This document shows, piece after piece, positions 40,581 to 43,231 of a stretch of 64,000 bases of DNA. A program made the translations under genes and the position numbers. The number at the start of each line of letters is the position of its first letter. The stretch's first letter is position 1. Source of the stretch: Kaistia dalseonensis (lineage in GTDB: Bacteria; Pseudomonadota; Alphaproteobacteria; Rhizobiales; Kaistiaceae); assembly GCF_030814715.1 (NCBI RefSeq), contig NZ_JAUSVO010000001.1, positions 558,001 through 622,000 on the forward strand, read 5' to 3'. Below the pieces are notes generated by a model that did not search any database, was not told the origin of the DNA, and saw only the letters and a program-made list of their open reading frames with translations.

Positions 40581-41987
40581 CTATTCGGCGGCCGCAAGCG
40601 TGGTCCCGTTCAGCCAGATCGCTGCGTCCGCTCGGGCACGGGCCGTCAGCGCGTGCTTCTTGGCCAGCGCCTTTTCCGGTCCGCGCAGGCGCTTGCCGGG
40701 AACCTTGGGGACCTCGACCGGCGGGAACAGCCCGAAATTGACGTTCATCGGCTGGAAGGAGCGCACGCCGCCCTCTTCGCCCGCTATGTGGCCGCCGGTG
40801 ATATGGCCGAGCAGCGCGCCGAAGGCGGTGGTGGCCGGGGGCAGGCTCGGCGCCTCGCCGAGGCGTTCGGCGGCGGCGAAGCGGCCCGCGAGCAGGCCGA
40901 TCGAGGCCGATTCGACATAGCCCTCGCAGCCCGTGATCTGGCCTGCGAAGCGCAGGCGCGGCATCGCCTTCAACCTAAGCGTCGGATCGAGCAGCTCCGG
41001 CGAATTCAGGAAGGTGTTGCGGTGCAGGCCGCCGAGCCGCGCGAATTGGGCGTTCTGCAGGCCCGGGATCATGCGCAGCACATCGGTCTGCGCGCCATAT
41101 TTCAGCTTCGTCTGGAAACCGACGATGTTGTAGAGCGTGCCGAGCGCATTATCCTGCCGGAGCTGGACGATCGCATAGGGCTTGACCAGCGGATCCTTCG
41201 GATTGGTGAGCCCCACGGGCTTCATCGGGCCGAAGCGCAGCGTCTCGCGGCCGCGCGAGGCCATGATCTCGATCGGCAGGCAGCCGTCGAAATAGGGCGT
41301 CGAGGCTTCCCATTCCTTGAAGTCGGTCTTGTCGCCGGCGAGGATCGCGTCGACGAAGGCGTTATATTCGGCCTCCGTCATCGGACAGTTGATGTAATCG
41401 GCGCCCGTGCCGCCCGGCCCGACCTTGTCGTAGCGCGACTGGAACCAGGCGATCTCCATGTCGATCGAATCGAAATAGACGATCGGGGCGATGGCATCGA
41501 AGAAGGCGAGGGAATCGACGCCGGTCAGGCCGCGAATGGCATCGGACAAGGCCGGCGAGGTGAGGGGACCGGTCGCGATGATGACGCTGTCCCAATCCTC
41601 GGGCGGCAGCGCATCGACCTCGCTCCGCTCGATCGTCACCAGCGGATGATCCTCGAGCGCGCTCGTGACGGCCTGCGAGAAGCCCTCGCGATCGACGGCG
41701 AGCGCGCCGCCGGCCGGCACCTGATGAGCATCGCCCGTGCGCATGATCAGCGAATCCGCCATGCGCATCTCGGCATGCAGCAGCCCGACGGCATTGGCGT
41801 CGGCATCATCCGAGCGGAAGGAGTTGGAGCAGACCAGTTCGGCGAGGCCGTCGGTCTTGTGGGCGTCGGTGCCGCGCACGGGGCGCATTTCATGCAGCAC
41901 GACGGGAATGCCGCGGCGGGCGATCTGCCAGGCTGCTTCAGAACCGGCGAGGCCGCCGCCGACGATATGGATGGGCTTGTGTGTCAT
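40581..41987 (-). CDS. trmFO: Folate-dependent tRNA (uracil-54-C5)-methyltransferase
   Basis: Makes ribothymidine at position 54 of tRNA using methylenetetrahydrofolate and FADH2. The 468-residue protein opens with the FAD-binding [18 protein letters not shown] at about 6-23, and has [20 protein letters not shown] near 43-62 with the Cys of the active site. [20 protein letters not shown] near 357-376 is also typical. The ATG at 41987 is used; the upstream frame has no family match. TrmFO is found mainly in Firmicutes and Alphaproteobacteria, which fits the host. Confidence 0.95.
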
Positions 41988-42050: not shown

Positions 42051-42090
42051 AATGAAAAACGCCCGTCGGGGAGGAGGTCGACGGGCGTTT
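42051..42090 (-). terminator. Rho-independent terminator of the DUF1127/hairpin RNA transcript
   Basis: On the minus strand a perfect 12 bp stem AAACGCCCGTCG/CGACGGGCGTTT (plus-strand 42057-42068 and 42079-42090) is followed by a run of five T. Its 10 nt loop is ACCTCCTCCC, so it doubles as the third anti-Shine-Dalgarno hairpin. Confidence 0.85.
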
Positions 42091-42161
42091 CTCTATGGAG
42101 GCGTTCAGCGAGGGAGGAGGTTCGCTTACCGCCATATCGCAGGGAACGAGGGAGGAGGTTC
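42057..42161 (-). ncRNA. Cuckoo/CcsR-like small RNA with three CCUCCUCCC hairpins
   Basis: Downstream of the DUF1127 stop, on the same strand, three hairpins each present CCTCCTCCC. Hairpin 1: GAAC/GTTC stem at 42144-42161. Hairpin 2: AGCGA/TCGCT stem at 42107-42126 with loop ACCTCCTCCC. Hairpin 3: 12 bp stem at 42057-42090 with the identical loop, followed by five T. The motif is complementary to the Shine-Dalgarno sequence. In Rhodobacter, CcsR (Cuckoo) RNAs with such loops are processed from the 3' part of a DUF1127 mRNA (ccaF1) and act in stress responses. Gene order, strand and motif all match; expression is not shown here. Confidence 0.82.
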
Positions 42162-42183
42162 GTGCCCCGACGAATTCTTGAAA

Positions 42184-42336
42184 TCAGTAACCGGCAGCCT
42201 GCCGGGCGACGCGATTGACGTCGGCGCGAACAATACCGAGATCGGTGAGCTCGCGGTTCGAAAGGCGCATCAACTCGCTATAGGTCTCACGATATTTGCG
42301 CCAGTTCTTGTATGAAGCATACAAATTCACGGCCAT
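42184..42336 (-). CDS. DUF1127 small RNA-associated protein (CcaF1-like)
   Basis: A 50-residue basic protein: MAVNLYASYKNWRKYRETYS at the N-terminus, then the DUF1127 core LMRLSNRELTDLGIVRADVN (about 22-41) and a short RVARQAAGY tail. Alphaproteobacterial DUF1127 proteins are tiny stress-linked proteins; the Rhodobacter member CcaF1 binds RNA and affects maturation of the small RNAs encoded behind it. The same linkage appears here: the first anti-Shine-Dalgarno hairpin starts 23 bp after the stop. The ATG at 42336 matches the family start; the longer open frame upstream does not. Confidence 0.9.
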   Translation of the reverse strand: MAVNLYASYKNWRKYRETYSELMRLSNRELTDLGIVRADVNRVARQAAGY

Positions 42337-42643
42337 GATCGTTTCCTTCATTCCTAAACCTTGGGCGAACCGAGGGTCTTTCGACCGGCGCCCTTTGTTG
42401 ATTGGAATGTATGGAAAATGATCGAAGTTGAGCACTCCGAAAAATCGCATGGCTGGCCTGCGCATGATGCAGAGCAACATTGCGCTGCGTTACAATATTG
42501 CGTCGCAACATAAAAGAGCCTTCGACCCGCCTTGATCCCGCCGAAAAGAGCCATGCGACGCCCTTTCGCCGTGGAAGCCGGGCCGCGCCCTGTTTCGCGT
42601 CACGGCCGAATGCTTCAGGATGCCGGCCCATTCGGAGAAAGAC
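42337..42643. other. 307 bp divergent intergenic region
   Basis: Holds the promoters of the DUF1127 gene (minus) and the periplasmic protein gene (plus), but I cannot place either with confidence. The central part (about 42390-42520) is notably A/T-rich for this genome. Two GCAACAT copies at 42474-42480 and 42505-42511 flank TTGCGCTGCG and TTGCGTCGCAA. No RpoH- or EcfG-type promoter was clear by eye. No coding sequence is supported. Confidence 0.5.
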
Positions 42644-43231
42644 ATGCATCTGAGGATATTGCTCGGCGTCGCGATGATCGCCCTTGCCACCGCCGCGCCG
42701 GTTTCCGCCTCGGCCGAGACGATCGCCCCGGCCAAGATCCGCTATTGCCACGGTTTCGGCTGCAAGATGCGCTCGCCCGTCGTCTTTTCGTCCGGCGATA
42801 TGGTGCAGTTGAAGCGGATCCTGGCGGCGGGGCGCAAGAGCCCCGAGGCCGAGCGCGCCGCGATTTCCAAGGCCGACCAGTGGTATGAGCGCAAGGCCGG
42901 CGCCCAGACCGGCACGTCGAATGACGGCGCCAAGGACGTCTACACCCTGTTCACGCCGCTCTCCGAGATCGACTGCGTCGACGAGACCGAGAATACGACG
43001 ACGCTGCTGCAACTGATCGATGCGCGCGGCTGGCTCGTCCATCACCGGGCCGGGCGGCCGGCCAATCGCGGCTTCCTGATCGATGGCCGCTATCCGCACA
43101 ACACGGCGACGATCGTCGAGATCAAGTCGGGCCGTGCCTGGGTCGTGGATAGCTGGGTCCGCGCCAATGCCGAGCCGCCGGACATCATGCCGCTCTCCGA
43201 ATGGAAGAAGCGCGGCGGCCGGGCGGACTGA
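42644..43231 (+). CDS. Secreted protein with a probable transglutaminase/papain-like fold
   Basis: A 195-residue exported protein. A signal peptide (residues 1-24, ending SASA) is followed by a Cys-bearing segment (YCHGFGCKM, Cys35 and Cys40). The sequence then shows a possible Cys-His-Asp triad in the order expected of bacterial transglutaminase-like proteases: Cys111 in EIDCVDETENT, His152 in PHNTATIVEI and Asp169 in WVVDSWV. I recognise no named family with certainty, so this is a fold-level prediction. The ATG at 42644 is preceded by GGAGAAA. It is divergent from the DUF1127 gene and convergent with the DUF2189 gene. Confidence 0.75.
   Translation: MHLRILLGVAMIALATAAPVSASAETIAPAKIRYCHGFGCKMRSPVVFSSGDMVQLKRILAAGRKSPEAERAAISKADQWYERKAGAQTGTSNDGAKDVYTLFTPLSEIDCVDETENTTTLLQLIDARGWLVHHRAGRPANRGFLIDGRYPHNTATIVEIKSGRAWVVDSWVRANAEPPDIMPLSEWKKRGGRAD

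Follow-up and report, generated by a model that had tools for sequence, protein, structure and literature searches.

A short DUF1127 gene in the window (the whole 64-kb stretch of DNA that was analyzed) is followed directly, on the same strand, by a three-hairpin RNA of the ar14 family, and the unit is best read as a DUF1127-ar14 operon of the cuckoo/CIN1 type. The RNA family is already known. It is very probable that this ar14 RNA is an sRNA that works through antisense pairing at ribosome-binding sites. A fuller chain, in which a LysR-controlled DUF1127 mRNA gives rise through its 3′ end to an sRNA that blocks ribosome-binding sites, is favored with moderate confidence; this confidence is lower because the regulator step is one that we infer. 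In this chain, a LysR regulator of the LsrB/VtlR type, bound about 50–70 nt upstream of the start, would switch on one short transcript, perhaps under stress, which would encode the 50-aa DUF1127 protein and carry ar14 at its 3′ end. Processing of the structured 3′ end, or decay up to it, could then leave an RNA some 125 nt long whose three anti-Shine-Dalgarno loops are identical. By pairing with purine-rich ribosome-binding sites, each loop would block the translation of target mRNAs, among which those of transporter binding-protein genes are likely to be found.

The DUF1127-ar14 Unit of the Window

The features of the unit and its downstream neighbor, all on the minus strand, are as follows.

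42447..42471, minus: LysR-type box TGC-N7-GCA-N9-TGC (TGCATCATGCGCAGGCCAGCCATGC), putative LsrB/VtlR site (pattern scan)
42406..42411, minus: −10-like TACATT (comparable hexamers occur in the aligned promoters of relatives)
42337..42400, minus: putative 5′ leader with a Shine-Dalgarno-like AAGGA at 42344-42348 (sequence and inference)
42184..42336, minus: DUF1127 small protein gene, 50 codons (PF06568, E 2.7e-13)
42054..42178, minus: ar14 sRNA (Rfam RF02344), behind the DUF1127 gene (covariance-model match)
42137..42173, minus: hairpin 1, loop ACCUCCUCCC at 42150-42159 (predicted fold)
42100..42133, minus: hairpin 2, loop ACCUCCUCCC at 42112-42121 (predicted fold)
42054..42093, minus: hairpin 3, loop ACCUCCUCCC at 42069-42078, T run at its end, intrinsic terminator (fold and sequence)
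40581..41987, minus: trmFO, downstream gene and syntenic marker of the window copy, outside the unit (NF003739, 672.6 bits)

The ar14 model (RF02344) matches at 73.1 bits against a gathering score of 58.8, with positions 1-123 of its 123 covered, and is the sole Rfam match at gathering scores within the window. The initial annotation of this DNA had proposed a Cuckoo/CcsR-like RNA, an identity that the full-length match above the cut-off bears out, and the linkage to DUF1127 that it described is the published arrangement of the CIN1 locus (PMC10253847). The motif CCTCCTCCC lies on the minus strand at 42150-42158, 42112-42120, and 42069-42077, exactly where it had been placed, and there is no fourth copy in the window; over 100 dinucleotide shuffles the average was 0.67 matches, and no shuffle reached three.

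For the 134 nt 3′ of the stop codon, the predicted structure has three hairpins (−55.1 kcal/mol; z −5.96), and 0 of 200 shuffles folded as well. In the predicted fold, each copy of CCTCCTCCC sits within the 10-nt loop ACCUCCUCCC, and each hairpin presents CCUCCUCCC unpaired, as is expected of ar14. The initial annotation was thus right that loops are identical 10-mers, although it counted two where the fold gives three; the 12-bp perfect stem that it saw in the terminator hairpin holds and is extended by the fold to 15 pairs. It had also placed the repeats 23 bp after the gene, but the first loop motif starts 25 nt past the stop codon, and the description of the RNA as a compact version does not stand, as three hairpins are the standard form of ar14 (NfeR1).

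The gene itself encodes 50 residues of a DUF1127 protein, as had been annotated, and the protein has no NCBIfam family match at E ≤ 0.001. In 10 of 10 pairwise comparisons among five trmFO-linked orthologs dN is below dS, as is expected of a translated gene. Transcription of the unit would start near 42400. When 29 other loci were compared with the window copy, 10 of them could be aligned on the trmFO side. Upstream of the unit, on the plus strand, lies a 203-aa ORF (window 42620-43231) with no Pfam match at E ≤ 0.001. A different kind of control has been described for a Sinorhizobium DUF1127 gene, namely attenuation via an upstream ORF under tetracycline (PMC12218461).

Copies and Conservation among Relatives

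Three ar14 loci of the genome score above the cut-off, the window copy included, and each lies behind a DUF1127 gene of 50 aa; the three proteins have 33-35 of 50 residues in common in pairwise comparison. The genome holds five DUF1127 genes in total, and the remaining two have neither an ar14 match behind them nor a box upstream. Among this genome and 30 relatives, ar14 is found in 21 of 31 at E ≤ 1e-5 and in 18 of 31 above the cut-off. The exact triple occurs in a single genome (this one) of the 289 in a class-wide draw and in 30 of the 199 in an order-wide draw.

From the 53 ar14 matches listed in the relatives, 31 were taken as loci, and 23 of these, all from the family of the window's organism, form the alignment A1. 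This alignment omits L142-L148 and L152, which are divergent, have other spacings, or belong to other families; the following figures thus describe the closer set. Across the 23 loci, 97.1% of the cells at the 29 consensus pairs are paired; by pair count both partners change in 15 of the 29, and RNAalifold counts 14 of the 29 as compensatory. Changes on both sides fall in 3 of 7 pairs of hairpin 1, 6 of 9 of hairpin 2 (helices 2 and 3), and 6 of 13 of hairpin 3. The covariation score is 0.340, compared with 0.165 (sd 0.010) in shuffles and no more than 0.157 with the partner strand slid, and the number of further pair types (23) does not exceed the shuffle mean of 26.5. The loops are more constant than the stems: the 69 loop motifs comprise 65 exact copies and 4 that deviate, while the stems vary, which is the opposite of the pattern (loops lost, stems kept) that had been named beforehand as speaking against such an RNA.

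The loop motif is shorter, for example TCCTCCC, in three further genera of this family (L144-L146), which suggests that the core needed may be shorter than nine bases. The number of hairpins varies widely as well, since 8 to 14 consecutive CCTCCTCCC motifs lie near one DUF1127 gene at some Rhodobacterales loci (L105, L088, L092, L085, L013, and L057). A locus from another family of the same order (L147 of genome G025, 863-2505) has a run of four DUF1127 genes, and two CCTCC-bearing motifs follow each of three of them.

A LysR-type Box Upstream of the Unit

The box of the window spans 71 to 47 nt before the putative start near 42400. The element that the promoters of relatives have in common is TGC-N7-GCA and, after it, N3-C(A/T)G; a TGC often lies nine bases after the GCA. 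The box in either form precedes 31 of 33 DUF1127 genes of the genome's own and the relatives' loci (27 of 28 within the family) and, among the matches listed, 35 of 44 other DUF1127-linked triples and 30 of 71 stand-alone triples, compared with 62 of 17,079 control windows. These scans covered 200 nt for the 33 own and relatives' genes, 380 nt for the 44 DUF1127-linked triples, and 150 nt for the stand-alone triples and the controls; excluded from the counts were four stand-alone clusters lying no more than 250 nt from a locus edge and the DUF1127-linked L026, whose upstream stretch was too short. Counted apart among the matches listed, the first form occurs in 30 of 44 DUF1127-linked and 27 of 71 stand-alone triples, and the second in 27 and 28, respectively. 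An nhmmer promoter profile, applied to 120 loci, proved too strict (15 of 45 DUF1127-linked and 9 of 71 non-edge stand-alone loci among the matches listed) and was replaced by the half-site pattern.

All 33 of the 33 regions that precede the DUF1127 genes of this genome and its relatives contain TGC-N7-GCA, as do, among the matches listed, 42 of 44 linked and 37 of 71 stand-alone triples; for TGC-N8-GCA the corresponding counts are 5, 6, and 7. Other peaks occur at N3 (30, 32, and 30) and N12 (30, 33, and 12) of the same 33 regions and, among the matches listed, 44 and 71 triples, and are read, tentatively, as additional half-sites within that conserved region. The step from GCA to a following TGC measures 9 nt in 27 of 44 and, likewise among the matches listed, 28 of 71 triples; spacings of 8 and 10 occur in none, and a spacing of 4 in 12 and 25.

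Because the half-site pattern was chosen on the same loci that gave these main counts, the true tests are 26 held-out loci, scanned with the pattern fixed beforehand. These are what remained of 30 later loci once L191-L193, from the window's own genus, and the previously seen L195 had been dropped. The box was present in 8 of 14 DUF1127-linked and 7 of 12 stand-alone held-out loci, compared with 123 of 3,727 control windows of 380 nt (3.3%), where several of the loci come from sister species and are non-independent, and where the windows for the stand-alone loci were 150 nt long. The N7 spacing recurred in 11 of 14 and 8 of 12 of them and N8 in 1 and 2; N3, N11, and N12 were frequent too.

Among the matches listed, the box precedes the first loop motif by 83-87 nt in 24 of the 30 box-bearing stand-alone loci. 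The 41 of 71 stand-alone triples without a box, again among the matches listed, comprise 10 non-alphaproteobacterial triples, none of which has it, and 31 others. Of 19 scanned loci among the matches listed that we assign to Rhodobacterales by their titles, 17 have the box (absent from L122 and L123; L026 lay outside the scan).

A Candidate Regulator

A 296-aa LysR gene resembling lsrB/vtlR lies directly after trxB in this genome, and trxB is, we presume, also the neighbor of lsrB in S. meliloti. No NCBIfam model names the candidate LsrB. Each of 20 triple-carrying genomes tested has one homolog of the LsrB-like protein at E ≤ 1e-40. In 12 of the 20, trxB is found in the examined flank of this homolog; the other 8 are Rhodobacterales. 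AbcR1/2 lie beside lsrB in S. meliloti (PMC8844928), and ar15, an AbcR-type RNA, is close by in 8 of the 12 trxB-linked loci. It was found in neither of the two loci scanned from the other 8 genomes, nor beside the LsrB-like gene of this genome. In Yoonia litorea, an Rfam match to SorX (L226:3748-3800) lies about 1.4 kb from the LysR homolog.

Transcription of nfeR1 requires LsrB as an activator, with the LsrB motif TGCA-N6-GCAT in the −72 to −60 stretch of the promoter and the site also given as −72 to −57 (PMC10746234). VtlR is a positive regulator of three DUF1127 genes and abcR2 in Brucella (PMC12595884), and in Agrobacterium the abcR1 promoter and that of the DUF1127 homolog atu1667 are both bound by it and have a box in common (PMC7486931). 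The published VtlR consensus, GCAT-N3-TG-N3-T (PMC7486931), fits the box of the window on the opposite strand only; among the promoters from this genome and its relatives, 8 of 29 match it exactly. Nothing on the box was found in the searched text of PMC11975290.

An LsrB-type protein may therefore read the box of the window, a proposal that draws on the position of the box, which resembles that of the LsrB site in the nfeR1 promoter (PMC10746234), on the VtlR regulation and binding just described, and on the presence of TGC-N7-GCA in every own and relatives' DUF1127 upstream region. The box has nevertheless been identified by its letters only, and LysR half-sites are generic. Control by another LysR-type or dimeric regulator, or by RpoH as in Rhodobacter, where the ccaF1-CcsR promoter depends on RpoHI/RpoHII (PMC10253847), is unlikely but keeps a real share of the probability; that trxB is missing from the examined flank of the LysR homolog in 8 of 8 Rhodobacterales genomes tested is in its favor. 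This alternative bears on nothing but the regulator step; the sRNA reading would stand either way.

Potential Targets and Mode of Action

The octamer GGAGGAGG, an 8-nt complement of the loop, lies 3-11 nt before an ATG at 41 places in the genome, compared with 6 for the reversed pattern, a signal that is suggestive only, as strong Shine-Dalgarno sites would turn up anyway and ordinary Shine-Dalgarno selection gives the same excess. The full 9-nt complement has 9 matches before ATG (two of them the same site), which is weakly above the control of 5. Of 30 eight-base matches inspected, 14 precede ORFs of at least 80 aa and 16 precede ORFs under 80 aa. Twelve of these 14 ORFs were scanned: two encode periplasmic binding proteins (L237, PF13458; L243, PF13407), and the remainder encode enzymes and other proteins, one of which has no Pfam match. 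Periplasmic binding proteins are the class to which two tested NfeR1 targets belong (PMC10746234), and these matches suggest, without more weight than that, that transporter binding-protein genes are among the targets of ar14. For ntrB, a reported NfeR1 target elsewhere, the match in this genome is only 6 bp and nothing special.

The identity of the three loops in the predicted fold would also suit a sponge for an RNA-binding protein, perhaps DUF1127 itself, or an RNA that titrates ribosome-binding interactions, as the initial annotation had put it, with no silencing of specific mRNAs. The Rhodobacter DUF1127 protein CcaF1 does bind RNA and has a part in CcsR maturation (PMC10253847). Such a role is judged improbable, and less likely than NfeR1-type antisense blocking, since NfeR1 has three redundant loop motifs and a reporter assay comparing the wild type with a triple-loop mutant led its authors to conclude that base-pairing blocks translation of ntrB at the ribosome-binding site (PMC10746234). 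For Salmonella YjiS, the account cited gives no evidence of RNA binding, and DUF1127 proteins also work through protein contacts (PMC12501420); moreover, ar14 RNAs occur as stand-alone genes with no linked DUF1127.

Relation to Known Systems

RNAs with three or four CCUCCUCCC hairpins, in several copies per genome, were described in Rhizobiales in 2011 and likened to the two-hairpin Rhodobacter RNA RS0680a (PMC3927594, section 2.7). The unit of the window resembles NfeR1 (Smr14C2), the ar14 RNA of Sinorhizobium meliloti, in its three CCUCCUCCC hairpins with variable stems, in having the terminator last, and in its several copies; NfeR1 has six copies per genome, and conserved promoter residues among ar14 RNAs have been mentioned (PMC7143759). 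Both also have a LysR-type (LsrB-type) box at a similar upstream distance, recognized here from sequence. NfeR1 has its own promoter, whereas the RNA of the window directly follows a DUF1127 gene that has the conserved promoter in front of it. By this layout the RNA does not appear to be an NfeR1 ortholog in the strict sense of a stand-alone sRNA with its own promoter.

The order of genes is instead that of ccaF1-CcsR1-4 (cuckoo, CIN1) in Rhodobacter sphaeroides, a DUF1127 gene followed by anti-Shine-Dalgarno hairpin RNAs on the same strand, for which co-transcription and processing dependent on RNase E and the DUF1127 protein have been reported (PMC10253847). CIN1 differs in that CcaF1 has 71 aa, is followed by four CcsR RNAs, and is expressed from an RpoHI/RpoHII promoter (PMC10253847), whereas the unit described here has 50 aa, three hairpins, and a LysR-type box. 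Like the DUF1127 genes of Brucella and atu1667 of Agrobacterium, the gene of the window is small and putatively under LsrB/VtlR-type control (PMC12595884; PMC7486931). The descriptions of those VtlR-regulated genes, as far as they go, mention no linked ar14 RNA (PMC12595884; PMC7486931).

Promoter motifs common to stand-alone ar14 RNAs are already in print, as is the motif common to abcR1 and a DUF1127 gene. A box common to DUF1127-linked and stand-alone ar14 RNAs was not found stated in the literature searched, and neither was a syntenic loss of DUF1127; either may be in print, as key work of 2015 and 2017 lay outside that search. The present data add a testable link between VtlR-regulated DUF1127 proteins, LsrB-activated NfeR1, and the ccaF1-CcsR operon of Rhodobacter, which have hitherto been studied separately.

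A Probable Natural Loss of DUF1127, and Stand-alone RNAs

One species of the same genus (genome G013, locus L149) has ar14 without DUF1127. Its upstream flank is syntenic with those of G006 (91%), G008 (79%), and G001 (78%), and at this site the latter three have promoter, leader, DUF1127 gene, and ar14 all present. In G013 the same promoter with its box and the same three hairpins are retained, the leader and ORF between them are missing, and the promoter stands directly before the sRNA. In a further genome (G011, flank 71%), neither DUF1127 nor a hairpin cluster was found in the stretch examined. Loss of DUF1127 is a simpler account than gain, because the gene is kept in three of the four ar14-bearing genomes, including the one closest to G013. 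The deletion in G013 yields the layout of NfeR1, and it is the one case seen. More widely, no DUF1127 gene was detected within 450 nt upstream in 71 of 115 triples among the matches listed (10 of the 71 non-alphaproteobacterial), a count in which very divergent genes could be missed.

These observations bear on whether the hairpins act in cis only, that is, terminate, stabilize, or regulate the DUF1127 mRNA, with loops that have no targets in trans. The third hairpin is a clear terminator, all three lie 3′ of the DUF1127 stop codon, and every ar14 match above the cut-off in this genome sits behind a DUF1127 gene. A terminator, however, requires one hairpin and no fixed loop sequence, and the retention of promoter and hairpins in G013 without the leader and DUF1127 argues against a purely cis role, as does the number of triples without an upstream DUF1127 gene. 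A role confined to cis is thus quite improbable, and the reading of ar14 as a trans-acting antisense sRNA is preferred.

A broader evolutionary reading is offered tentatively, as one that may well prove wrong: the DUF1127-ar14 operons of Hyphomicrobiales and Rhodobacterales would have one common LysR-type box, read by LsrB/VtlR, and stand-alone RNAs of the NfeR1 type would have arisen, perhaps repeatedly (a word that rests on one deletion case), by deletion of leader and DUF1127 gene, fusing the promoter to the sRNA. If this is true, the DUF1127 protein and the ar14 RNA are separable outputs of one redox-linked regulon. The syntenic deletion gives a concrete route, within one genus, by which an sRNA borne on the 3′ end of an mRNA could be kept as a stand-alone gene while the protein gene is lost.

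At eight stand-alone loci (L028, L029, L032, L043, L064, L091, L093, and L117; seven from Mesorhizobium and one from Rhizobiaceae), all without the LysR-type box, the triple starts 36-98 nt past a gene of one and the same type, whose product has a closely similar C-terminus throughout. We take this gene to look like a phasin gene, and it is perhaps another host mRNA for an ar14-type RNA.
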